41,303 nt of DNA from an uncultured Bacilli bacterium (lineage in GTDB: Bacteria; Bacillota_I; Bacilli_A; RF39; UBA660): contig CANQHM010000005.1 in assembly GCA_947623845.1 (NCBI GenBank), positions 1-41,303 of the forward strand. Direction: 5' to 3'. The notes under the pieces are model-generated. The model saw only the letters and a program-made list of their open reading frames with translations, was not told where the DNA came from and searched no databases. Made by a program: the position numbers and the translations under genes. Of the stretch, positions 1,794 through 41,070 are shown piece after piece (the stretch's first letter is position 1; the number at the start of each line of letters is the position of its first letter).

Positions 1794-3837
1794 TCTCTTT
1801 TATCCTTTCTTTAAATTTTTTGTCTAGATAGTTAAAATAATTGGTTTTTATTGCTAGATTACTCATTTTAATTTTATTATTTACTTTAGTATTAATACTT
1901 ACTATTTCTTCACTAGTATATTCATCAGAAGAGAAATATTCTATTTTTGAAGATGAAGCATCATAATAAGCTTTATCACTTATCCATGAACCATTATTAA
2001 ATATTACTAAATTACTATAATCTTCACTAAAGATATCTTCTCCCGCATAATATCTTGGATCATAATCGATATCAAATAGATTTAATAATGTTGGTAAGAA
2101 ATTCATATAGGTTGTATATTGTGGGAATTCTTGATGTCCTAATCCTGGATTATAAATCATCATTGGTGTTCTATCAACATTAGAATATACATCTAAGTCA
2201 TAATCAAGTAATGGTTGTAATTGATCTTTAGATATTGCATATGGATAGTGATCAGCAAAGAATAATATTATGGTATCATCTAATAAATCAGCTTCTTTTA
2301 ATTCATCAATTAATACTCCAACCGCATTATCAAAGTCTTTTAATTTAGATAAATATCTTTTAACTGTCTTACTTACATCTAAATCTTTAAATAAATCTAA
2401 GTATTTATCTCCTAAAGTTGAAGATACTCTATATGGTTGATGTCCCGCAACAGTTGTAAGATAAGCCATAAATGGTTCTTCTTGACTAAATATTGGGAAT
2501 GCTTTTTCCATAAGTAATGTATCACTTGGCCATTCTTCATAAACTTTAGAATAAGGTATTCCTAAATTTGCGGCATTATAATAAGTTGTTCCCATATTCT
2601 TATGAATAGTTTTACGATAATAATACGCATCAATATAGTTATGATAACTACTTGTCGTATACCCGTTATTACCAAACATATTAAAGATACTATAAGGGTA
2701 TACATTCTTTTGATAAATATTGGCAGTACAACTTAAATTTTCTGGGAATAATGATATCATGGCACTCATTTCATTATTACCCGTAGCACAAGAATTTCTT
2801 GGCGAATACATATTAGGGAAAGTCCATGCTTCTTTATATAGTTTATTAAAGTTAGGGAAATATTCTTCCATTAATAATAGATTAGATATACTTTCCATTT
2901 GCACAATAATTAAGTTTTTGCCTTTAAACATACCCGTATATTCATTCTTTGGTGTTATAGCTTTACTTAAAAAATATTCATGTAAAGTTTTATAATTTTT
3001 ATTCTTTTCTTCGGCTAATATTTCTTCATAAATAGTATCATCTATTTCTCTTGTATAATCTACTTTTGGTTCATTTTCTTCTTTTTGGAAACTAAAATCA
3101 ACATCTTTATTAAAAAATAAAGCTCTTATATCTAATAAACCATAACCCATGGTCCCAAATTCTCTAATCGCTAAGTTAGGCATAGCGACATTCATAAATA
3201 AATCTTTATTATTTTCGGTTTGGTATTTATCTTGCATAAAACCTAGAGTTAATGTTAAATAATATAACACTGGTAAGACAATAACACTTACCACACTTAG
3301 GATAATGGCTATTTTTTTATATTTTTTATCTTCGGTTTCAATTCTTAATCTTTCTTTTTTAGTTATTCTCTTTTTCTTTAGAGGAACAACAACCTTTTTC
3401 CCCTTACGCCATAAATAAATATATGTTCCTACCATTAAGATAAAAGGTACAATAATAAAATAGAAATACCATTTAAAACTAGTAATATAATCAACGATAT
3501 AACTAGTTACAGCGCCAGCTTGATCACTTGTTCCAAAAGAAATATAAACTCCTAAGAAGTTCGAAAATCCTGCTTGAGCAATTGTATAAATGCTTACAAT
3601 AAATACTAAAATTGTATTAATTATTACCCGGTATTTTCTTCTTATAAGAGCTTCTGGTATACTTACTACTAAACTAACTAATAATATACCTAATAGTATT
3701 CTAAGAGTTGCCCACGTAAATAGATTTAAACCTGATACTAGTTTAAAAATTATTTCTACTAAAAATAATATTAATACTAAAATTCCATAATCTATTAATT
3801 GTTTCTTAAGTTTATTTTTCACTGCTATTACTTCCAT
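1744..3837 (-). CDS. LTA synthase family sulfatase (phosphoglycerol transferase type)
   Basis: Membrane-anchored alkaline-phosphatase-superfamily protein of about 697 residues, the LtaS/MdoB type that moves glycerol-phosphate groups to a lipid or glycan outside the cell. About five hydrophobic helices fill the first 200 residues. The extracellular catalytic domain starts near residue 308 (KNLIIVQMES, metal-binding Glu), has a nucleophile candidate Thr in NSCATGNNEMSAM and later AGHQPY and FFADHYPY, which fit the metal and substrate ligands of LtaS. It differs from classical LtaS around the Thr, so the exact substrate is open. Starts possible are GTG 3843, ATG 3837 (used here) and GTG 3822; the last gives MKNKLKKQ just before the first helix and has GGAAG 8 nt upstream. 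It overlaps rnhB upstream and topA downstream. Confidence 0.85.
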   Translation of the reverse strand: MEVIAVKNKLKKQLIDYGILVLILFLVEIIFKLVSGLNLFTWATLRILLGILLVSLVVSIPEALIRRKYRVIINTILVFIVSIYTIAQAGFSNFLGVYISFGTSDQAGAVTSYIVDYITSFKWYFYFIIVPFILMVGTYIYLWRKGKKVVVPLKKKRITKKERLRIETEDKKYKKIAIILSVVSVIVLPVLYYLTLTLGFMQDKYQTENNKDLFMNVAMPNLAIREFGTMGYGLLDIRALFFNKDVDFSFQKEENEPKVDYTREIDDTIYEEILAEEKNKNYKTLHEYFLSKAITPKNEYTGMFKGKNLIIVQMESISNLLLMEEYFPNFNKLYKEAWTFPNMYSPRNSCATGNNEMSAMISLFPENLSCTANIYQKNVYPYSIFNMFGNNGYTTSSYHNYIDAYYYRKTIHKNMGTTYYNAANLGIPYSKVYEEWPSDTLLMEKAFPIFSQEEPFMAYLTTVAGHQPYRVSSTLGDKYLDLFKDLDVSKTVKRYLSKLKDFDNAVGVLIDELKEADLLDDTIILFFADHYPYAISKDQLQPLLDYDLDVYSNVDRTPMMIYNPGLGHQEFPQYTTYMNFLPTLLNLFDIDYDPRYYAGEDIFSEDYSNLVIFNNGSWISDKAYYDASSSKIEYFSSDEYTSEEIVSINTKVNNKIKMSNLAIKTNYFNYLDKKFKERIKENEESEESSNSGVTSKK

Positions 3838-4447
3838 TTCCACTCTCTATTAAATCACGAACTGGCCCATATGTAAACCTATAATTTGCTAAAGGACCAT
3901 ATTTTTTTAATGCTTCTAAGTGTTGTTTTGTGGGATACCCTTTATGTTTTTTAAACCCATATTCCGGGTATTCTTTATCTAATTCATCCATCATTCTATC
4001 TCTTGTAACTTTCGCAATAACACTGGCAGCGGCGATAGATAAGGACTTGGCATCACCCTTAATTATCGGTAAATGTGGGACATCAATGTCCAATTTCATG
4101 GCATCAATTAATACATAATCTGGTTTAACACTTAGATTATTAATAGCTTCTTTCATTGCTACTTTTGTTGCTTCATAAATATTTATTTTATCAATTGTTT
4201 TCGCATCGCACATGCCAATCCCAATACTTATCGCATCTTTTTGTAATATATCGTAAAACTTATCTCTTTGTTTTGCCGTTAATTTTTTACTATCATTTAA
4301 TCCCGCTAATTTATAATTTTTAGGTAATATTACCGCCGCCGTAACCACCGGTCCTACTAAAGGACCTCGTCCTACTTCATCAACCCCCGCTATTAACTTA
4401 TAACCTTCTTTATAGAGAGCTTTCTCATATTTAAGTAAACTAACCAC
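3812..4447 (-). CDS. rnhB: Ribonuclease HII
   Basis: Cytoplasmic nuclease that cuts the RNA strand of RNA-DNA hybrids and removes misincorporated ribonucleotides. 211 residues, the usual length. The motif AGVDEVGRGPLVGPVV near residue 20 supplies the first catalytic Asp and Glu. YVLIDAMKLD carries another acidic residue, and SIAAASVIAKVTRDRMM with the HKGYPTKQH segment is typical of the C-terminal half. The start is GTG at 4447 with a strong GGGAGG 7 nt upstream. The start lies inside the last codons of the upstream unknown gene and the end overlaps the sulfatase gene, so these are co-translated units of one operon. Confidence 0.97.
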   Translation of the reverse strand: MVSLLKYEKALYKEGYKLIAGVDEVGRGPLVGPVVTAAVILPKNYKLAGLNDSKKLTAKQRDKFYDILQKDAISIGIGMCDAKTIDKINIYEATKVAMKEAINNLSVKPDYVLIDAMKLDIDVPHLPIIKGDAKSLSIAAASVIAKVTRDRMMDELDKEYPEYGFKKHKGYPTKQHLEALKKYGPLANYRFTYGPVRDLIESGNGSNSSEK

Positions 4448-5039
4448 GTCTTGCCCTCCCTATTTCTAATAAATTCTTTTGAATTTCTTGATTCTCATCC
4501 CATAGTAAAACTTCTTCTAAAGCTTCTCTATTAAAAGGATAATTTTCTAACAAACTATTTTTATCTATTCCATAACTAACCACAAATTCTTTATTAGTTG
4601 TCGTTATAACTTTTCTTCTATTAATAATATTATCTCTTAATACTTGAGGATTATCTTCTAAATATTTAACTCTAGCATATAAAAGACTCGTACTAATCAT
4701 AAAATCTTTCGCATGGTTTAATAAAGCATCATCTCTTATGCTTTCTAAGGTTTCATCTACTACTCTTCCCATAATTAAATATTTATAAAATAAATGATTC
4801 TTATCGGTATGAATAATCGCCGGCCATTTCTTTATAACGGCGATAACACTTTTGGTATCATATCCTAAAGTTTTAAAAAACTCTAAAAGTTCATCTAAGT
4901 TTTGAGCAAAATAAGCTAATGAGCTACGATTTTGTAAATATTCCAAAATTATTTTATAAAATTCTTCTTGTTCTTTCGTATTTAAATAAACACTAACTTG
5001 TAATTTTTCTTCTAAAACATTTTTAAAATCTTCACTCAT
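4440..5039 (-). CDS. Unknown helical protein, mTERF-like repeats
   Basis: 199 residues, predicted soluble and nearly all helical; I do not recognise a bacterial family. Residues about 50-90 (FFKTLGYDTKSVIAVIKKWP, then a linker and KYLIMG) follow the pattern of an mTERF helical repeat: a LGY/LGF turn, amphipathic helix, a conserved Pro, then a second helix. A weaker second unit follows around LLNHAKDFMISTSLLYARVKYLED. The mTERF link is inference from pattern only. The gene sits between rbgA and rnhB, overlapping rnhB by 8 nt and lying 8 nt after rbgA, so it is co-expressed with ribosome assembly and RNA-DNA hybrid repair genes, which would fit a nucleic-acid-binding role. Confidence 0.8.
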   Translation of the reverse strand: MSEDFKNVLEEKLQVSVYLNTKEQEEFYKIILEYLQNRSSLAYFAQNLDELLEFFKTLGYDTKSVIAVIKKWPAIIHTDKNHLFYKYLIMGRVVDETLESIRDDALLNHAKDFMISTSLLYARVKYLEDNPQVLRDNIINRRKVITTTNKEFVVSYGIDKNSLLENYPFNREALEEVLLWDENQEIQKNLLEIGRARRG

Positions 5040-22549: not shown

Positions 22550-22570
22550 AAGAACTATTTATAAGTTCTT
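22550..22570 (-). terminator. Terminator after rpsU-yqeY
   Basis: Stem AAGAACT/AGTTCTT (22550-22556 with 22564-22570), 7-nt loop, followed by UUUUUU on the minus strand. It overlaps the last codons of yqeY and separates it from yqfC. Confidence 0.85.
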
Positions 22571-23008
22571 CATTATTAATTCTTTAACTTTTTTACTTAC
22601 TTCACTCATATCTGCTCGTCCATGAGTCCGGTTTTTAACTTCTGCTACAACTTTACCCATATCTTTCATGCTACTTACTTCGATCTCCGCCATTACTTCG
22701 TTAATGATTTTATCGACTTCTTCGGCACTCAAATCCTCCGGAACATAAGTATTTAAAACTTTAATTTCTTCTTCTAGTTTGGCAACTTCATCCATCTTTT
22801 CATATTTAGTATATTCTAAAATACTATCTTTTCTTTGTTTAATTTGTTTTTTAATAACACTTATAACTTCTTCATCCGTAAGTTCACTTTTCTTATTAAT
22901 CTTTTCTAATTGAAGAGCACTCTTAAGCATTCTTAGCACTCCTAAAGTAAACTTATCTTGGGCTTTCATAGCATTGGTCATATCAGATACTATTTTATCA
23001 TTTAACAT
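22559..23008 (-). CDS. yqeY: YqeY/GatB-tail domain protein
   Basis: 149 residues, entirely one YqeY domain, the unit also fused to the C terminus of GatB where it contacts tRNA. Landmarks: MLNDKIVSDMTNAMKAQDK, VLRMLKSALQLEKI, IKQRKDSILEYTKYEKMD and LSAEEVDKIINEVMAE. Standing alone its role is not settled, but it is almost always downstream of rpsU, as here (11 nt apart). Confidence 0.95.
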   Translation of the reverse strand: MLNDKIVSDMTNAMKAQDKFTLGVLRMLKSALQLEKINKKSELTDEEVISVIKKQIKQRKDSILEYTKYEKMDEVAKLEEEIKVLNTYVPEDLSAEEVDKIINEVMAEIEVSSMKDMGKVVAEVKNRTHGRADMSEVSKKVKELIMKNL

Positions 23009-23019
23009 AAGTATTCTCC

Positions 23020-23202
23020 TTAATCACGATGATGTCTACGTGAATTTCTAATCATTTCTTTTTTTGCTTCTCTTCTTCTTACTCCTGGTTTAGAATAATG
23101 TTTTCTTTTTTTTAGTTCTGAAGGGATGCCACTTTTGGCTACTTTCATTTTAAATTTTCTTAAAGCACTATTAATATCGCCATTTACCACAACTTTAGTC
23201 AT
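23020..23202 (-). CDS. rpsU: 30S ribosomal protein S21
   Basis: 60 residues. S21 sits near the anti-Shine-Dalgarno end of 16S rRNA and is needed for initiation. The sequence starts MTKVVVNGDINSALRKFKMK and ends in a basic tail (KKEMIRNSRRHHRD). ATG 23202 has GGAGGG 5 nt upstream. First gene of the rpsU-yqeY operon, with a strong promoter at 23232-23260. Confidence 0.97.
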   Translation of the reverse strand: MTKVVVNGDINSALRKFKMKVAKSGIPSELKKRKHYSKPGVRRREAKKEMIRNSRRHHRD

Positions 23203-23269: not shown

Positions 23270-23968
23270 TTAAGGTTTTGCTACAGATTTAGAATCTACA
23301 AAAAAATCAACACTATCAAGATAAGCTTTAAGGTTAACGACATTTGTTCCTTCGGTTATAAAATTTGTTATATCTGTAAAAACTAGTGAATCAATATTTA
23401 AATTACTATAATTTCCCCCAATTCCTGTCCCCGAAATATTTAGGGTATATGTTCCCGGTGTACTTACTTCAACAATAGAAGATAATAAATTCCAGTTAGC
23501 AACTAAATCTGGCGAATAATAACCTAAATTAAAATTATAACTAGTTCCTCCTGATGATAAAGTAACATTACTTGTTCCCGTAATCGTCCCATTTCTAAAT
23601 ACATAATAACGGAAATAATAATAATGATTTCTTTGTAAATTACTTATATTTTGTCTAATACTACTATTTCCTTTATAAATAGCAATACTTCTTACTCCAC
23701 TAAATGTTGAAAACGAAGGATTAAGATTGGCGGCATTTTCTAAAGTCCATCCACCGTCTTCTTCAAAGTCGCCATTTACTACTAAATTTTGTAATAATAC
23801 ATATTTATTTTCAATACTTTTATTTAAATCATCTACGACACCACTATTAACATTATCTACTAAAATCCTATTATGGGCATAGGTTGCTAAAACGGTGGCT
23901 ACTACGGCCACAAAAACTAAAAAAAACGCATAAATAAGTGATGTTGCTATAAACCCTTTATTATTCAT
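23270..23968 (-). CDS. Surface protein with pilin-like N terminus and CBM-like domain
   Basis: 232 residues. It begins MNNKGFIATSLIYAFFLVFV, a short basic leader and a long hydrophobic stretch as in type IV pilin-like proteins (NKGF in place of the usual GF-TLIE). The rest is strand-rich: NLVVNGDFEEDGGWTLEN and later a TPGTYTLNISGTG region, which is the look of a family-4/9 carbohydrate-binding jelly roll. It would be anchored at the membrane with the domain outside. ATG 23968 follows GAGGTGG by 7 nt. Single gene with its own promoter; ligand unknown. Confidence 0.75.
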   Translation of the reverse strand: MNNKGFIATSLIYAFFLVFVAVVATVLATYAHNRILVDNVNSGVVDDLNKSIENKYVLLQNLVVNGDFEEDGGWTLENAANLNPSFSTFSGVRSIAIYKGNSSIRQNISNLQRNHYYYFRYYVFRNGTITGTSNVTLSSGGTSYNFNLGYYSPDLVANWNLLSSIVEVSTPGTYTLNISGTGIGGNYSNLNIDSLVFTDITNFITEGTNVVNLKAYLDSVDFFVDSKSVAKP

Positions 23969-24034: not shown

Positions 24035-24061
24035 AAGGAAGATTGTTTTAAAATCTTCCTT
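24035..24061 (-). terminator. Terminator of the bacteriocin operon
   Basis: Perfect 10-bp stem AAGGAAGATT/AATCTTCCTT (24035-24044 with 24052-24061), 7-nt loop, then a U-rich tail on the minus strand. It overlaps the stop codon of the last small gene by 2 nt, which confirms that gene as the operon end. Confidence 0.92.
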
Positions 24062-24212
24062 ACACAACAAAGGTACTTAAAAATGATCCAATATATCTTC
24101 CAAAATTTAATAATAACGTAATAATTAGTGAGCAAAAATTTAAAACTAAAGGAAGACATACTATCCCAATAACAATACCTAGTATCTTACTATTTTTTAC
24201 TTTAGTTAGCAT
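24060..24212 (-). CDS. Hydrophobic small protein, putative immunity protein or third peptide
   Basis: 50 residues from ATG 24212: a basic head MLTKVKNSKI and then almost wholly hydrophobic (LGIVIGIVCLPLVLNF and on) with NFGRYIGSFLS near the end. There is no double-glycine leader. Its second half lines up with the mature part of the preceding peptide: N-x-x-S-x-I-I, then GR-x-x-G, 7 identities over about 23 positions without gaps. The start overlaps the end of that gene by 7 nt, so they are made together. I infer a membrane-embedded immunity protein that mimics its bacteriocin, or a third peptide exported another way. Confidence 0.75.
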   Translation of the reverse strand: MLTKVKNSKILGIVIGIVCLPLVLNFCSLIITLLLNFGRYIGSFLSTFVV

Positions 24213-24355
24213 CTTCTACCACTAAAAATCATATTAATCGCCGTGCCAACTGTTCTACCTAAATCACAAATAGTATCGATAATTCTTGAAATGGAATTAA
24301 ACCAAGTAGCAGTAATAGCACCACCAACTGTTTCTATAAGTTCTTTTTCATTCAT
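24206..24355 (-). CDS. Double-glycine-leader bacteriocin-like peptide 2
   Basis: 49 residues. The leader MNEKELIETVGG ends in the GG cut by C39 peptidases and has the ELxxVxGG pattern. The mature part would be 37 residues: AITATWFNSISRIIDTICDL, then a GRTVGT segment and the ending SGRRC. It contains two Cys and a G-x-x-x-G (GRTVG), the helix-packing motif of two-peptide class IIb bacteriocins. ATG 24355 has AAAGGAG about 10 nt upstream. It follows peptide 1 by 21 nt. Confidence 0.85.
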   Translation of the reverse strand: MNEKELIETVGGAITATWFNSISRIIDTICDLGRTVGTAINMIFSGRRC

Positions 24356-24376
24356 ATATTTTCTTCTCCTTTCTAA

Positions 24377-24520
24377 TTATTTATTGCAAGCAAGAGGTCT
24401 TAAGATGCCATCAATTACTCCAATAAGGAATATGCCAGCAGCGACAATTCCTGCTACCAGGGCCGCACTAATACCTCCTCCTTTTACCATCATTAGTTCT
24501 TCGTTTGATAAAACATTCAT
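24377..24520 (-). CDS. Double-glycine-leader bacteriocin-like peptide 1
   Basis: 47 residues. Leader MNVLSNEELMMVKGG, a textbook LSxEELxxVxGG signal, then a 32-residue mature part that is glycine- and alanine-rich and hydrophobic (GISAALVAGIVAAGIFLIG) and ends RPLACNK. With peptide 2 it looks like a class IIb pair. ATG 24520 follows GGGAGG by 6 nt. Directly downstream of the transport genes by 2 nt. Confidence 0.88.
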   Translation of the reverse strand: MNVLSNEELMMVKGGGISAALVAGIVAAGIFLIGVIDGILRPLACNK

Positions 24521-24522
24521 TA

Positions 24523-24960
24523 CTATCCTCCCTTTCTAAATGGATTAATTTTATCAATTAAAGTATGCTTATTACTAAGAATATTTAGGGTAACTATCTC
24601 TTCTTTAAAATCTATTTTCTTTGCTAATTCATAAGTAATAGTTTGATAACTTTCTAAAGCTTCATAATCCGTTTTAATTTCACTAATATTTACTTTCTTA
24701 ATATCGTATTCTTTCTCTTCGAGATATATTTTATCGCCTTTTTTAAGTATTTCCGTATTTGTAGCATCTGTTGTAATGGAAATGGAACACTTAGTATCAC
24801 AGCTAATCACTCCCTTCACCGTATAAATATCATACTTATAAGTAAAGAAGAAAAGATAAAGAATTGTGACAATAATTATACTTAAAATCATAAATAATAA
24901 CTTAAAAGAAAATTTCTTGCGATATAATCCTTCTAGCGAATTACTTAAATCACTAACCAT
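24523..24960 (-). CDS. Minimal HlyD-like accessory protein for peptide export
   Basis: 145 residues: a short cytoplasmic head (VSDLSNSLEGLYRKKFSF), one membrane helix (LLFMILSIIIVTILYLFFF) and a strand-rich outer domain with GDKIYLEEKEYDIKKVNIS and TITYELAKKIDF. This looks like the membrane-proximal part and barrel domain of bacteriocin accessory proteins of the HlyD family, but the long coiled coil is missing. One CDTKC pair may form a disulfide. It overlaps the transporter gene by 8 nt and precedes peptide 1 by 2 nt, so it belongs to the export machine. Confidence 0.65.
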   Translation of the reverse strand: MVSDLSNSLEGLYRKKFSFKLLFMILSIIIVTILYLFFFTYKYDIYTVKGVISCDTKCSISITTDATNTEILKKGDKIYLEEKEYDIKKVNISEIKTDYEALESYQTITYELAKKIDFKEEIVTLNILSNKHTLIDKINPFRKGG

Positions 24961-27004
24961 AACAATCCTCTAAATTAATAATATTTCCTTCGGTATAATT
25001 ATTTCGATGAGTTATGTAGATAACTGTTTTACTTGGGTAATTTTCTTTTATCTCTTCAATAATTCTTTGTTCTTCCGCTTCTTCTAACTGTGATAGCGCT
25101 TCGTCTAAAATAAGAATTGGGGTGTTACGAACTAACGCTCTTGCTAAAAGAATCCTTTCTTTTTCACCACCAGATAGATTATAATTTTCTTTACTAATTA
25201 AAGTTTCATAACGTAACGGTTTATTTATAAATATTCTTTCTAAGCCACAAATCTTACTAATCATATCTAACTTTTTCGAAGATACTTGTTCTCCTAATAA
25301 AATATTATTTTTGATAGTATCCGTAAAAATACTTTCTTCTTGCGATAAATAAGTAATATTATTACGCAAAGTGTTTAAGGGATAATCTAAGATATTAATA
25401 TCATTTATCGTAATACTCCCTTTATTAGGAGTTAAACTTCTAAATAACATTTTACATAACGTTGATTTTCCACTCCCACTCTTCGCTTTTAAAATGGTAA
25501 AACTATTCTTTGGTATCATCATATTTACTTTATCAAGTATATAATCATAATCATTATAACTATAAGATATATTATTAAATTTAATATCCCCCGAAACAAA
25601 ATTACTTATTCCTTCTTTGGTAAAATCTTCTTCTTTAATACTACTAAAATCACTTACTCGGTTAAAAGAAGCACTAATTACCCGATATTCCGGAATAATA
25701 TTTATAATCGCTTCGATAGGACCTTCTAGATAACTTAATAGGGAAGTAAAAGTTATTAAATCAATTAACGTTAAATTTCCATTTATAATACTAATTAATC
25801 CATAACAATTTAAGAAATATATTCCTCCTTCTTTTAATATATTTTTAATTGTATTAGATTTTGTAACTTTTAAATAGAACTTAAACAAATTACTTTCTTT
25901 TTTAACAAATACTTTCTCTAAATTTCTAAAAAAATATCGATAGTTATTATTATTTTTTATACTCTTAATATTTGATACATACTCGGTTGTCAAATTATTA
26001 TAATTAGTCTCCGTATCAATATTAGCATTTATTTCTTTTGTAAGTAACTTACTATAAATAACCCCATAAATAATATATAAAAGATAAATTACAACTACTA
26101 TCATAAATAGTTTTCTATTTAACTTAAATAATATAATACTAGAAATTATCGCTAGAGTTAAATCTAATAGAATAGTTACTAATATCTTACTAAATAAATC
26201 TTTTATTCTTTCCAAGTCCCCTATTCTTGTAATTATATCACCGGTACTTCGCGATGATAAGATACTTGAAGGAAGTAAAAGAATATGGGTTAAAAACGGA
26301 TATATAACTTTAATATCAATGTTTTTATTTAAGTAATTTACTAGATTATCTCGTAAGTAATTACTAATTATTTTTATTACTAGAATCATACCAAAGATTC
26401 CTAATAATACATATAAATAATTTTTAGTACTTACATAGAGATTATTAATGACACTTTTTAAGAAAAAACTACCTAATATCGAACTTATAGTAAGAATTAT
26501 ACTAAAAATGATGGTTTTACTAATTAACTTTTTTTCATCATTAAAGATACTTTTAAAGATACTAGTAATTTTCATTTTCTTAGTATAAGTTATCTTTTTT
26601 ATTGGATACATACTAATTATAACTCCAGTCCATAAGTCTTTAAATTCACTTAGTTTCATAGTTTTTATTTTGTCAGCTGGATCCATAACTATAACTTTAT
26701 CTTTTCTAATCTCGTAGACCACTACAAAATGATTATAACCATTTTTTAAAACGATATGAAATATTGCCGGCAGGATTAAGTCATTAGGTATTACTTTGTC
26801 TTGACATTTAATACCTTTTGCAGAAAATCCATATTTTTCTAACGCTTTAATTAAGTGATAAGCGGTTGTTCCTTTAGTACTAGTAGCAGTATCTATTCGT
26901 AAATCTTCTTTATTAATGTACCCATTATAAGACATAATAATTGATTGTAAACAGGACACGCCACAGTCCGTTGCGTCACTTTGTCTAACAAAATACTTCT
27001 TCAC
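24953..27004 (-). CDS. Peptidase-containing ABC transporter for double-glycine peptides
   Basis: 683 residues in the order C39 peptidase, six membrane helices, ATPase. The protease part starts KKYFVRQSDATDCGVSCL with the catalytic Cys14; the His is in GYNHFVVVYE and the Asp in VIVMDPADK. The ATPase has Walker A AKSGSGKST (Ala at the usual first Gly), signature LSGGEKERI, Walker B ILILDEALSQLEE and an H-loop YITHRN. It cuts leaders after GG and exports the core. Start: GTG 27004 with AAGGGAG 8 nt upstream; the ATG at 27022 lacks a binding site and would lie before the predicted transcript start. It heads the bacteriocin operon. Confidence 0.93.
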   Translation of the reverse strand: MKKYFVRQSDATDCGVSCLQSIIMSYNGYINKEDLRIDTATSTKGTTAYHLIKALEKYGFSAKGIKCQDKVIPNDLILPAIFHIVLKNGYNHFVVVYEIRKDKVIVMDPADKIKTMKLSEFKDLWTGVIISMYPIKKITYTKKMKITSIFKSIFNDEKKLISKTIIFSIILTISSILGSFFLKSVINNLYVSTKNYLYVLLGIFGMILVIKIISNYLRDNLVNYLNKNIDIKVIYPFLTHILLLPSSILSSRSTGDIITRIGDLERIKDLFSKILVTILLDLTLAIISSIILFKLNRKLFMIVVVIYLLYIIYGVIYSKLLTKEINANIDTETNYNNLTTEYVSNIKSIKNNNNYRYFFRNLEKVFVKKESNLFKFYLKVTKSNTIKNILKEGGIYFLNCYGLISIINGNLTLIDLITFTSLLSYLEGPIEAIINIIPEYRVISASFNRVSDFSSIKEEDFTKEGISNFVSGDIKFNNISYSYNDYDYILDKVNMMIPKNSFTILKAKSGSGKSTLCKMLFRSLTPNKGSITINDINILDYPLNTLRNNITYLSQEESIFTDTIKNNILLGEQVSSKKLDMISKICGLERIFINKPLRYETLISKENYNLSGGEKERILLARALVRNTPILILDEALSQLEEAEEQRIIEEIKENYPSKTVIYITHRNNYTEGNIINLEDCYG

Positions 27005-27024
27005 TTCTATTTCTCCCTTCATAT

Positions 27025-33745: not shown

Positions 33746-35431
33746 TTATTCATTACCATCTTGAGCAGTTAGAACGATACGGAAAGTAGTTGAACCCCAC
33801 CCACCAGGTCGGTGAAAAAAACTTAAAAAACCAGCTCTAGGACTGTATTCCGCAGGTGCACCACGCGCCATCCAAGTATCCGAAGAAGTTACAAAGCCAT
33901 CATTATGTGAAAACCAACTTACCACTTCTTCAGTTCCATCTCCTAAATGTTTTCTTGCATTAGCACTTGACGTTGTTCCATAAGAATATATATCATAGTA
34001 TTTTGATTTGGGATTTTGTACGTAAGTTTCATCTAAAACATCAGAAAATTGAGCTCCAGAAGGATTAAACTCACCTTTTTCATTAACCATGTTTCCCATT
34101 ACAAATTCATAGCTTCCCCCAGACATATCATATATACCATAAATATTATCTGTTGTAGATGCATGAATTCCATTATGATTCCATTTATTTTGTTCTTCAC
34201 AATTTTCTACTGGCTTTTCGTCCACATAAGAACTAGAACACCCTGTAATATAACTTAAAGCATTATTGCTCCATACTGTAGCACCATTATTAATTTCATT
34301 TCCATCACTAGTATATCTTCCATAAACACTTAATACCAAGTATGATATTGCTCCCCATTCGATATTTTTTGCTACATGAGTATCGATTTTATCTTTATTT
34401 AAATTATATTGAGAAAAATATAATTCATCAATATCTCGTACACCCTTAAACATATAAGCAAAATTTATACTTTTGGTTAATGGATTTAAATTAGGGAGAA
34501 TTTTTAAATTTGTAATTTTTTTTGTGGAATTATCATATTCTCCACTAGGTTCAAACTTGCCTACCCATATACCTGTTAATTCTGTTTCACCAAATGTGAA
34601 TGCGGGATGTGTATACCAATCTCCATTATCAGCCAAATTTCCCTCTTGATCTAAGCATTTTTCCTTTATTTCCCCATTATTTTTATTTTCATATGAACAT
34701 TTTATATCTCCAGTGGATGACATTCCCTCTTCAAAAGCAACATTTATCACATGCTCTTTGACGTCATATGAACCTTCAATATTAAATAATTGATATTTAT
34801 ATCTTGGTATCCACACATACATTTGTAGAACTTCTTCCATTAAAACTTGATTACCCGCGATATCATCTCTTAAGGTATTATCTTCTTTAAAATATTTATT
34901 CTTTATTGTAGTATTAGATGCATCTACTAATACGGCATTAGCCCATCTATGATCTTGATAATTATACCAATCTTTACTTGTATCTGCTACATACATTAAA
35001 CCATTATCTCCATATACTATTGGTATCATTCCTTGGAATAATTCTGGGGCATTTGGTAAATTTCCAGTTTCAAACTTTACAGTACATTTATTTGGTCCAT
35101 CACTAGTAAAGTGTAATTTCCATTCGGTATTATCAAAATAAGCTTCACTATATTCTTTATCACATTCTATGCCACTATATATTTTACCTTCATTATTTTT
35201 TGGAAAATCTCCTTGGGTTTTACCATCTACTAATACTGACAAATAAATATCTCGTTTCTTAAAATCACCAACTGTTGTATAAACTAAACTCTTAGTGTGT
35301 CTTACTTGGTATAGCGCATAGGTACTTCCTACTGCTACAATTAATAAGAGTGCTATAATACTATATAGTATCTTATTCCTATTTCCATTCTCTATTTTCT
35401 TTAATTCTTTCTCTGGATTAAATCTTCTCAT
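33746..35431 (-). CDS. Large membrane-anchored surface protein with FGE/C-lectin-like end
   Basis: 561 residues. A short basic head (RRFNPEKELKKIENGNRNK) and a single membrane helix (ILYSIIALLLIVAVGSTYAL, near 20-39) are followed by a strand-rich N-terminal module up to about 125 with GIECDKEYSEA and GPNKCTVKFE, then a long outer region. The last 130 residues (IYGIYDMSGGSYEFVMGNM, then WMARGAPAEYSPRAGFLSFF and the ending TTFRIVL) look like the formylglycine-generating-enzyme/C-lectin fold also used as a display scaffold. Four Cys pairs could form disulfides. It has its own promoter and terminator and faces the HTH regulator. Ligand unknown. Confidence 0.7.
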   Translation of the reverse strand: MRRFNPEKELKKIENGNRNKILYSIIALLLIVAVGSTYALYQVRHTKSLVYTTVGDFKKRDIYLSVLVDGKTQGDFPKNNEGKIYSGIECDKEYSEAYFDNTEWKLHFTSDGPNKCTVKFETGNLPNAPELFQGMIPIVYGDNGLMYVADTSKDWYNYQDHRWANAVLVDASNTTIKNKYFKEDNTLRDDIAGNQVLMEEVLQMYVWIPRYKYQLFNIEGSYDVKEHVINVAFEEGMSSTGDIKCSYENKNNGEIKEKCLDQEGNLADNGDWYTHPAFTFGETELTGIWVGKFEPSGEYDNSTKKITNLKILPNLNPLTKSINFAYMFKGVRDIDELYFSQYNLNKDKIDTHVAKNIEWGAISYLVLSVYGRYTSDGNEINNGATVWSNNALSYITGCSSSYVDEKPVENCEEQNKWNHNGIHASTTDNIYGIYDMSGGSYEFVMGNMVNEKGEFNPSGAQFSDVLDETYVQNPKSKYYDIYSYGTTSSANARKHLGDGTEEVVSWFSHNDGFVTSSDTWMARGAPAEYSPRAGFLSFFHRPGGWGSTTFRIVLTAQDGNE

Positions 35432-39482: not shown

Positions 39483-40757
39483 TTATGGAAATGGATGAGG
39501 TTTATTATCTAATACTTCTCCATATTTTAATCCTAAGTTTTTAGGTACACTCCAAAATCTTTCTGCTCCTAACCGTGGTAATAAATGGGTCTTATTTAAA
39601 TCAATAAGCCCTGGTACTATTACTTTTACTACTTTTAATTTTGTTGGTTTAATATCAGCAGTAGTTAATTCTTTATAATATACTTCTAATCCCTTTTCTT
39701 TTAAATTTTCTAATACTTTTTTTAAATTAGTTTTTTCTTTTTTATATTTTACTACTTTACTAGTAAATAATAACTCTTTAAACTTATCTCCTTGATAATA
39801 TAAGAAATGTTCATATAAAGCTTTAATCTCTTTAGGATTATCTACTCGTGCATCAATAATATTTTTTGAATAAAAATGAGTAAATAAACATTCTTTTAAA
39901 GCTTTATTAATCGCATAATCCGAATCAAAATGGGCACACGCTCCAATTCCATAATGAACCTTTTTCCCTTCTTCTTGCCATATATAAGCTAAATAAATAG
40001 GTACTTTAATATCACTATACAATCTATAAATTTTAATATTATATTCTTCTTTAATCTTATTAATTAATTCTTTATTATTACCATCTATAGTTTCTATATC
40101 AATCTCTAAAGGATTTAATCTTTGTAAGAAATTAATCATTAAAGCATCTCTTTCTAATAGTTCTAAGAGTCCACTAGTAATACAATCTTCTATACTAAAT
40201 CCAGCACTCATACCTGTTGAGGTATTTTCCGCTACAGGTAATGATATACTAAATGGCAAATAAATTAAACTAGCCGGATAATACATATATTTTTTTGGAT
40301 TATTAATGCTATATATTTTAGTCCAATGTATCTTATCTTTATAAGGATTAGTAAAATTTCTATTTTCTTGATATTGTTTTTCATTATATGTTGCAAAAGA
40401 CTCAAAAGTTTTACTTTTATCTAATTCATCTTTTTTAGCATAAATAAGTTCATCTTTAGGAATAAATGACATGCAATATCTTTCAATGCTTTCAGCTAAA
40501 CAACTAATAATTGCTCCTGTTCTTGTTTCGCTTATTCCCAGTCCCCCACTAGATACTTCTCTATCTAAATTGAATAAAACTGAAGCATTAGCACTTAAAC
40601 ATTGATACATATATAAATCATATTTTAAAAGTTCTTTTCTTTCTAGTATGGCATTTACAATACCAAATTTATCACTAATAATTCCACATAACGAATGATA
40701 TTCTTTATCTAATAAATCTAAAATATCTTCTTTTTTTAATATTAATTTATTTTTCAT
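39483..40757 (-). CDS. YcaO-domain cyclodehydratase (TOMM/azole RiPP type)
   Basis: 424 residues. YcaO proteins use ATP to activate backbone amides of a precursor peptide, forming azolines from Cys, Ser or Thr. ATP-site motifs: SCLAESIERYCM, STGMSAGFSIEDC with LLELLERDALM, and NKALKECLFTHF. The end, LLPRLGAERFWSVPKNLG and then KPHPFP, shows the PxPxP motif typical of azole-forming YcaO enzymes. ATG 40757 follows AGGAG by 8 nt; the frame extends 24 nt further up inside the partner gene, but the site is better here. It overlaps that partner by 11 nt. Confidence 0.9.
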   Translation of the reverse strand: MKNKLILKKEDILDLLDKEYHSLCGIISDKFGIVNAILERKELLKYDLYMYQCLSANASVLFNLDREVSSGGLGISETRTGAIISCLAESIERYCMSFIPKDELIYAKKDELDKSKTFESFATYNEKQYQENRNFTNPYKDKIHWTKIYSINNPKKYMYYPASLIYLPFSISLPVAENTSTGMSAGFSIEDCITSGLLELLERDALMINFLQRLNPLEIDIETIDGNNKELINKIKEEYNIKIYRLYSDIKVPIYLAYIWQEEGKKVHYGIGACAHFDSDYAINKALKECLFTHFYSKNIIDARVDNPKEIKALYEHFLYYQGDKFKELLFTSKVVKYKKEKTNLKKVLENLKEKGLEVYYKELTTADIKPTKLKVVKVIVPGLIDLNKTHLLPRLGAERFWSVPKNLGLKYGEVLDNKPHPFP

Positions 40758-41070
40758 TGCTATAACTCCTAGGTACTTCAATAATTTGATGAATTACTTT
40801 CGACCCATCTTTATATAATTCTATAACTTCATTATCATTTAACTTAATATTTAATTTTTCTAATTTTTTAAGTTTGCTCTTTCTAATTTTCTTATAAATA
40901 TTAATCTTATAAATACTATTAGATTTTACCCTTAAATAGAAAGAATCTTCTAAAAAATTCTCATTAATTTTTGGCCCAATTAAATAACTATTTCTAGTTT
41001 TAGCTACCAAAATATCTTTACCTAAAGTATTTCTATTCTTTAAATATTCATTATAAAATAAATACTTCAT
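40747..41070 (-). CDS. Degenerate E1-like/ocin-ThiF partner of YcaO
   Basis: 107 residues, basic. The stretch KDILVAKTRNSYLIGPKIN followed by FLEDSFYLRVKSN recalls the middle of TOMM leader-binding (ocin-ThiF) proteins, where a GP...CxxCxxxR pattern is found. The end VIHQIIEVPRSYSNEK recalls their H...PxCxxC ending. Both Cys pairs that bind zinc in those proteins are absent here (Ser/Asn in their place), and the protein is far shorter. The match is by pattern only. Gene position directly ahead of YcaO, with overlap, supports a partner role. Confidence 0.55.
   Translation of the reverse strand: MKYLFYNEYLKNRNTLGKDILVAKTRNSYLIGPKINENFLEDSFYLRVKSNSIYKINIYKKIRKSKLKKLEKLNIKLNDNEVIELYKDGSKVIHQIIEVPRSYSNEK

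Follow-up and report, generated by a model that had tools for sequence, protein, structure and literature searches.

A small protein homologous to the second peptide of a class IIb-like cassette in one order of uncultured Bacilli: a possible membrane decoy for immunity

We analysed a 41,303-nucleotide stretch of contig CANQHM010000005.1 from an uncultured Bacilli bacterium (assembly GCA_947623845.1), here called the window. It contains a compact cassette that encodes a C39-peptidase ABC exporter, an accessory protein, two peptides with GG leaders (peptides 1 and 2) and a third small protein (protein 3; Table 1). Judged by its sequence, the C-terminal half of protein 3 is homologous to mature peptide 2, and the cassette, rather than forming a sporadic island, belongs to the core genome of an entire order and is passed on mostly vertically. 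The sequence features of protein 3 suggest that it is most likely a membrane-anchored mimic of peptide 2 that confers immunity. The fuller proposition, that the cassette is an order-specific core class IIb-like two-peptide system in which protein 3 would be a peptide-2-derived membrane decoy giving immunity, is one for which we put the chances at about even. Our literature searches turned up no description of this cassette. What is new here is the homology at the level of sequence across many species, the start codon of protein 3 embedded in the peptide 2 gene, the usually single cysteines of the peptides and the order-wide core status of the locus.

The comparisons were made on 109 loci, which comprise the window, eight loci from named genomes (L001-L008) and 100 fetched regions. 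These regions were picked from score lists (approximately 60 from a peptide 2 list and 40 from a protein 3 list), making this a biased sample. Protein 3 was recognized by position, as a frame of 35-75 aa whose start lies no more than 26 nt upstream and no more than 1 nt downstream of the end of the peptide 2 stop codon. This gave candidates at 52 of the 109 loci, of which 51 were kept. The one dropped, at L143, was a GG-leader-like frame without GxxxG; the protein-3-like frame of that locus sits 133 nt after peptide 2. A profile-profile comparison of peptide 2 with protein 3 returned a probability of 96.1 and an E-value of 3.4e-9, compared with a probability of 0.4 for peptide 1 and protein 3 as a control. 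With leaders removed, the score between peptide 2 and protein 3 was 30.5, whereas 200 column permutations gave a mean of 7.1 and a maximum of 15.3, so that none was as good. Because protein 3 had first been gathered partly with a profile that held the motif, we also tested the 19 proteins found by position (the 12 of a second sample described below and 7 at the 109 loci that had escaped the first profile, with none dropped). GxxxG occurred in 18 of these (2.6 expected) and GxxxGxxxR in 17 (0.09 expected), a number that none of 2000 shuffles reached. Over all 63 proteins 3, the first 51 of which had been filtered for GxxxG, the counts were 62 and 52, respectively.

The relationship was also seen within single operons, where 41 of 51 pairs of peptide 2 and protein 3 were similar at p<0.05 versus 3 of 50 control pairs of peptide 1 and protein 3. 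In the window itself, the ungapped match of the mature parts that an earlier sequence-only reading of this DNA had pointed out scored 33, compared with 19.5 +/- 3.7 for shuffled sequences (9 of 2000 as good), and BLASTP gave an E-value of 5e-4 as a single comparison. Taken alone, the similarity of this pair is suggestive rather than decisive. That reading had also stated that a similarity no better than that of shuffled hydrophobic sequences would count against it; the similarity observed is far above the shuffled controls. Chance resemblance between hydrophobic peptides was rejected on the basis of the permuted alignments, the GxxxGxxxR shuffles and the per-operon shuffles.

Protein 3 represents a genuine protein family, most members of which are unannotated. 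The window protein has no family above cut-off in Pfam or NCBIfam. As had been anticipated, such small genes are easily missed. Protein 3 is rarely predicted, and a profile search of 5.8 billion proteins, by a method that requires shared short words, yielded 18 matches at E<=0.001. A single-sequence search with window protein 3 found nothing, not even its own copy, whereas profile searches succeeded. We also compared non-synonymous with synonymous changes per site (pN/pS) in 13 related pairs, excluding the first 8 codons of protein 3 owing to the overlap with peptide 2. The ratios ranged from 0.14 to 0.80, all below 1, with a pooled value of 0.465. Having fewer non-synonymous than synonymous changes per site indicates that protein 3 is coding, translated and selected, although less strictly than peptides 1 and 2, for which pN/pS in related pairs was 0.27 and 0.25. 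At 42 of the 51 loci its start codon shares its TG with the conserved Cys codon of peptide 2; the remaining starts are at -23 (six loci), -17 (two) and +1 (one). Loci without protein 3 also keep this cysteine, save one clade of eight, and the start codon is thus not the sole reason for the cysteine. The N-terminus carries a net positive charge in all 51 proteins, and the model of protein 3 is a single helix over residues 9-49 (pLDDT 85).

The second sample was taken in list order and not by score; it comprised 40 of the 50 genomes within G009-G061 that have peptide 2, the other 10 having already been fetched. Protein 3 was present in 12 of these 40 genomes (11 with GxxxG and one with SxxxG) and in 2 of the 10 fetched earlier, or 14 of 50 overall. 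Its profile matched 168 of the 385 genomes of the order at E<=0.01, with 104 listed at E<=5e-6, and many of the weaker listed matches are actually to the C-terminal part of peptide 2 itself. Among the 30 best genome-wide matches (E<=1.1e-4), 29 immediately follow a peptide 2 gene (one of these, in G117, by coordinates) and the 30th is a 26-residue partial match within a 777-aa frame. Homologues of protein 3 occurring without peptide 2, which the sequence-only reading had named as evidence that would speak against it, were thus not seen among these matches. We then placed protein 3 on an exporter tree built with FastTree from 104 of 107 exporters (short ones omitted), 47 of them with protein 3 and L143 scored as without. 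Its presence requires at least nine changes, five of them forced by well-supported branches, compared with 34 for shuffled labels, and it occurs on either side of a midpoint root that was used for drawing only. Few changes and occurrence on both sides of the root fit an old gene that was lost several times. The order probably had protein 3 from early on, and several clades then lost it.

An exporter scan of named genomes gave 14 loci, eight of which (L001-L008) are real relatives at 38-45% identity; all eight have the exporter, an accessory-like frame and genes like those for peptides 1 and 2. We searched the order of the genome behind L002, an order of small-genome Bacilli, with 14 peptide 2 query sequences, and 359 of 385 genomes matched at E<=0.01. 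By its genome reduction, this order may be one of the RF39-like orders described in PMC10868615. When 395 genomes sampled across the class were searched, 56 matched at E<=0.001. All 51 matches of full or near-full length fell among the 54 genomes of the order set, whereas five of the 341 other genomes, placed outside the order from genome lists, matched in the leader part only. In a phylum sample of 334 genomes, 39 matched at E<=0.01, with 13 genomes of the order matching over the whole length and 26 others partially. No relative was found in viral contigs searched with peptide 2. Of 97 order genomes, 91 have the C39 domain, mostly as a single full-length copy, with weak partial extras in nine, and in some genomes the exporter is on a different contig from peptide 2. 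The six genomes without it (G033, G035, G039, G069, G072 and G080) are the six that also lack peptide 2. Overall, the cassette is close to all-or-none and order-specific at this sampling.

The recurring gene order is exporter, accessory, peptide 1, peptide 2, protein 3 where present, rpsU and yqeY. The exporter was present at 107 of the 109 loci and 38 of the 40 loci of the second sample. Among the 109 it is absent at L127 owing to a contig end, and at L090. The poorly conserved accessory protein was recognized at 77 and 27 of these loci, respectively. We found rpsU at 75 and yqeY at 64 of the 109 loci, and rpsU downstream of the cassette at 25 of the 40; where the accessory protein, rpsU or yqeY was undetected, it is beyond the fetched DNA, too diverged or absent. 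Exporter distances correlated with those of yqeY (r=0.773, 61 loci), as did distances of peptide 1 (r=0.42), peptide 2 (r=0.47) and protein 3 (r=0.35), and in each case none of 2000 permutations was as high. Such correlations are what mostly vertical inheritance predicts. Within one group of uncultured gut bacteria with small genomes, most of the members sampled have the cassette, and in some of them it carries a hidden third gene. A core, order-specific bacteriocin-like cassette in uncultured Bacilli raises the question of what role these peptides have for a whole lineage.

The two peptides have several features of class IIb bacteriocins, in which GxxxG motifs are known for helix-helix contact and which are described as permeabilizing membranes (PMC6957408; PMC8538875). 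They are adjacent, differ from each other, have GG leaders (LSNEELMMVKGG and NEKELIETVGG in the window, as had been read from the letters alone), carry GxxxG in both mature parts and are accompanied by a dedicated C39 exporter and an accessory protein; a dedicated immunity gene has a candidate in protein 3, at 12 of the 40 sampled loci. Peptide 1 adjoins peptide 2 at 108 of the 109 loci (the exception is L090) and at all 40 sampled loci, where peptide 2 was the entry criterion. In the peptide 1 family (63 members), GxxxG, a Pro and a Cys are at least 90% conserved, the first G of the motif at 90% or more and the second invariant. In the peptide 2 family (109 members), GxxxG is invariant, and the Arg after it and a Cys are at least 90% conserved; the Arg of GxxxGxxxR is present in 102 of the 109, and the window peptide has Asn in its place. 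Window peptide 1 just passes the cut-off of TIGR03949, the class IIb lactobin A/cerein 7B model (22.1 bits versus 21.5), with the leader contributing. Window peptide 2 matches no named family above cut-off in Pfam or NCBIfam, does not reach that of the Lactococcin G-beta/enterocin 1071B model NF038034 (19 versus 37 bits) and had six matches in the 5.8 billion proteins, its own copy counted. The two peptides are alike mainly via their leaders, as the mature parts gave a profile-profile probability of 0.2, and no convincing relative of either was found among solved structures.

Of 108 mature peptides of each kind, 98 of peptide 1 and 100 of peptide 2 have exactly one Cys; mature peptide 2 of the window is one of three that carry two. 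Because there is usually a single Cys per peptide, we considered an intermolecular disulfide. In the clade of eight loci mentioned above (L004, L005, L006, L098, L102, L107, L120 and L126), peptide 2 is without the C-terminal Cys and three of the eight instead have a Cys inside GCxxG; peptide 1 of the same loci is without its Cys tail and has a Cys inside GxxCG. These linked changes, which represent approximately one event, hint at a linked role of the cysteines of the two peptides and are only a lead. At the related loci L001 (position 10945), L002 (position 10512), L088 and L093, peptide 1 has no ATG, GTG or TTG start and its frame begins with ATT after a ribosome-binding-like AGGAG; L119 and L130 also have no standard start for peptide 1, possibly using ATA. 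One or two extra GG-leader peptides, including duplicated pairs of peptides 1 and 2, occur in L006 (12421-13007), L007 (12636-12770), L008 (12467-12604), L126 and L209.

The exporter has a C39 domain (PF03412, 118.5 bits), an ABC-membrane domain (PF00664) and an ABC-ATPase domain (PF00005). Its best NCBIfam match is TIGR01193, a peptide cleavage/export ABC transporter, at 390 bits and under the cut-off of 523.85. The accessory protein has no Pfam family above cut-off. Its AlphaFold model (pLDDT 89.9) has a helix over residues 3-39 and strands over 41-133, and the best Foldseek match was the membrane fusion protein Spr0693 (probability 0.96, E 0.069), a weak match. The modelled fold thus hints weakly at a distant likeness to membrane fusion proteins.

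C39 exporters cleave after GG, and the exporter here would be expected to cut both leaders at this point and to export both peptides. An example of such cleavage during export is gallocin A, as described in PMC10100652. By their motifs, mature peptides 1 and 2 may pair through GxxxG within the membrane and permeabilize it. Both keep this helix motif and usually one Cys, and they are encoded together with a single C39 exporter and, at loci where it was recognized, a one-helix accessory protein. Protein 3 may have been derived from the mature part of peptide 2, with the basic N-terminus and hydrophobic helix taking the place of the former GG leader; the homology itself does not depend on this direction. 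Having no GG leader, a positive N-terminus and a one-helix model, protein 3 should stay in the membrane of the producer and would not be exported by this exporter. A secreted third peptide was judged unlikely on the same lack of a GG leader. Because protein 3 carries the motif of peptide 2, it could pair with peptide 1 or take the place of peptide 2. Translated in step with peptide 2, it might occupy peptide 1, or the docking site of peptide 2, as a non-functional partner that forms no pore, and the producer would be protected. The sequence-only reading had left open whether protein 3 protects by mimicking the bacteriocin or is a third component; its resemblance to peptide 2 is real and mimicry is probably the better of the two, whereas a secreted component is less likely.

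Immunity by mimicry is already in print as a proposal. In the gallocin A operon gllA2-gllA1-gip of Streptococcus gallolyticus, the third gene, gip, is reported to suffice for immunity, and the modelled shape of GIP was proposed to mimic the gallocin A peptides and block their pairing (PMC10100652). As described there, that operon is like the window in that a third small gene comes after those for two peptides with GG leaders, and in having cysteines in the peptides (PMC10100652). The resemblance in gallocin A is between helical hairpins modelled at low confidence, whereas here it lies in the sequence (GxxxG, mostly GxxxGxxxR) and is to peptide 2 only. Each gallocin A peptide is described with an internal disulfide, whereas the peptides here usually have one Cys and no two-Cys hairpin. 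Protein 3 is one modelled helix with a basic N-terminus in an order-wide core system, unlike GIP, which we compared by its description and not its sequence. The lactobin A/cerein 7B family (TIGR03949) shares GG leaders, GxxxG, a C39 exporter and an accessory protein with the window, and peptide 1 is just over its cut-off; the window differs in that peptide 2 matches no family, both peptides have Cys, there is no adjacent regulatory gene and the locus is a mostly vertical core locus. In the wtf poison-antidote meiotic drivers of fission yeast, a single gene with two transcripts yields a protector that has sequence in common with the toxin plus an additional N-terminal segment. These work in a parallel way with unrelated proteins in a eukaryote. 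Such drivers are the subject of PMC6283613 and PMC5478261. In size, protein 3 is like the class IIb immunity proteins CbnZ, BrcI, EnkIaz and AbpIM, which are given as 42-55 aa, and CbnZ (42 aa) also has a single membrane helix, with the N-terminus in and the C-terminus out (PMC6957408). The same source calls the mechanism of class IIb immunity a mystery (PMC6957408). A bacteriocin-derived decoy recognizable in sequence and kept over dozens of species would make class IIb immunity mutationally testable via the shared GxxxG and, in most, the Arg.

Several observations weigh against a decoy that gives immunity. By the positional criterion, protein 3 is absent from 28 of the 40 genomes that were not chosen for it (approximately 70%), and at these loci no replacement gene was visible between peptide 2 and rpsU where the two are close. 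With this fraction of carriers lacking it, protein 3 cannot be the only protection; there, protection differs or is unneeded. It is not a universal immunity factor, and neither this nor the order-wide, mostly vertical core status of the locus had been foreseen in the earlier reading. The Arg of GxxxGxxxR is missing from both peptide 2 and protein 3 of the window, from protein 3 in the protein-3-bearing kin of the window and from 9 of the 51 proteins 3 with the window counted. A search for coevolution specific to pairs of peptide 2 with protein 3 turned up hardly any beyond the shared motifs: pairs from the same operon scored 34.9 versus 33.2 in 302 pairs from other operons, and the partial correlation of their distances given the exporter was 0.115. 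The pN/pS values suggest strong conservation of peptides 1 and 2 under purifying selection, which is unlike an arms race. Finally, L090 (G256:C3, oriented 3498-4858) has neither exporter nor peptide 1. Only peptide 2 and protein 3 are found there, immediately behind a serine recombinase (PF07508), and a DnaQ-type exonuclease and a helix-turn-helix gene lie further upstream. This is perhaps an integrated element or mobile copy, and this exception means that not every copy of the cassette is simply vertical.

The most serious alternative, which we consider doubtful, is that the cassette serves mainly to export peptides for a conserved physiological role in the order (signalling, for instance, or one linked to sporulation) and not as a weapon, with protein 3 tuning it. 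The near-universal, mostly vertical occurrence of the cassette, usually in one place, and the purifying selection on its peptides favour this, as do sporulation-type flanking genes (YqfD and YabP/YqfC downstream in the window; SpoIIIAH and GerM upstream in L002). However, these flanks may be chance chromosome context, GxxxG is found in both peptides and class IIb models recognize peptide 1 (TIGR03949 matches 56 of its 63 family members at E<=0.1, with the leader contributing). A bolder version of the decoy proposal seems to us unlikely. Here, a whole-order core two-peptide pore system would use a copy of a pore peptide as membrane decoy, its start read from within the conserved Cys codon of the copied peptide, and the peptides would be a disulfide-linked pair in normal physiology (feeding on neighbours, sporulation) and not an occasional weapon.

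It is also rather improbable that protein 3 is a membrane partner required by peptide 2, as an assembly, export or display factor, and not for immunity. The start built into the peptide 2 Cys codon suggests matched output, protein 3 is homologous to peptide 2 only, and L090, the sole pair without a nearby exporter, retains the two together. By contrast, the 28 sampled genomes that keep peptides 1 and 2 and the exporter without protein 3 show that it is dispensable for them, and its presence needs at least nine changes on the exporter tree. That protein 3 is a degenerate, decaying and functionless copy of peptide 2 is very improbable. It does evolve faster (mean p-distance 0.70 versus 0.51 for peptide 1 and 0.57 for peptide 2, 47 loci) and was lost several times, but pN/pS is below 1 in all 13 pairs, the open frame and overlapping start are retained over deep divergence and nearly all copies keep GxxxG. 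That it is a small membrane protein of other origin, such as one of holin type, and resembles peptide 2 by chance is scarcely credible, since the window protein matches the Pfam family Hol_Tox only below cut-off (E 0.051) and no permuted alignment or GxxxGxxxR shuffle reaches the observed similarity.

In the window, the five genes of the cassette are tightly packed on one strand. The exporter and accessory genes overlap by 8 nt, gaps of 2 and 21 nt precede peptides 1 and 2, respectively, and peptide 2 and protein 3 overlap by 7 nt, such that the start of protein 3 overlaps the Cys codon and stop of peptide 2. These coordinates bear out the packing described from sequence alone, and the pairing of two GG-leader, GxxxG peptides with a dedicated C39 exporter is likewise supported by motif conservation in the families and by the exporter domains. 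The hairpin proposed to end the operon has a folding energy of -10.2 kcal/mol (positions 24061-24035). L001 and L002 likewise have a hairpin with a T run after protein 3, and each of the three folds more stably than most of its shuffled versions (z of -2.6, -3.1 and -3.8 for the window, L001 and L002). A simple terminator scan of the window was, by itself, not above chance (2 found versus 1.0 +/- 1.1 expected). No regulatory gene was seen by eye beside the cassette, and no Rfam family was found in the window.

Table 1. Features of the cassette and its downstream neighbours in the window.
Feature	Position	Strand	Description
C39-peptidase ABC exporter	24953..27022	minus	689 aa from ATG 27022; in-frame GTG 27004 is an alternative start
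Accessory protein, 145 aa	24523..24960	minus	One N-terminal membrane helix and a beta domain
Peptide 1 precursor, 47 aa	24377..24520	minus	GG leader; mature part GISAALVAGIVAAGIFLIGVIDGILRPLACNK
Peptide 2 precursor, 49 aa	24206..24355	minus	GG leader; mature part AITATWFNSISRIIDTICDLGRTVGTAINMIFSGRRC
Protein 3, 50 aa	24060..24212	minus	No GG leader; basic N-terminus, hydrophobic helix, C-terminal half resembling mature peptide 2
Intrinsic-terminator-like hairpin with T run	24035..24061	minus	From folding energy
rpsU (ribosomal protein S21)	23020..23202	minus	PF01165; common downstream neighbour of the cassette
yqeY	22559..23008	minus	PF09424; next neighbour after rpsU

Downstream of the peptide genes in the window lies a protein with a pilin-like N-terminus as judged by eye (23270-23968, minus strand) and no Pfam family above cut-off; similar frames with such an N-terminus also occur in L001, L002, L124, L131, L132, L181 and L199. 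A 561-aa protein (33746-35431, minus strand) shows a single N-terminal membrane helix when inspected by eye and matches no Pfam family at E<=0.001. Near the end of the window, at 39483-41070 on the minus strand, is a YcaO protein (PF02624, 169 bits) that scores 210.5 against the SagD family TIGR03604, compared with a cut-off of 219.25. Upstream of it lies a 107-aa protein of no family, and the two may belong to a second modified-peptide cluster that is cut by the window edge.

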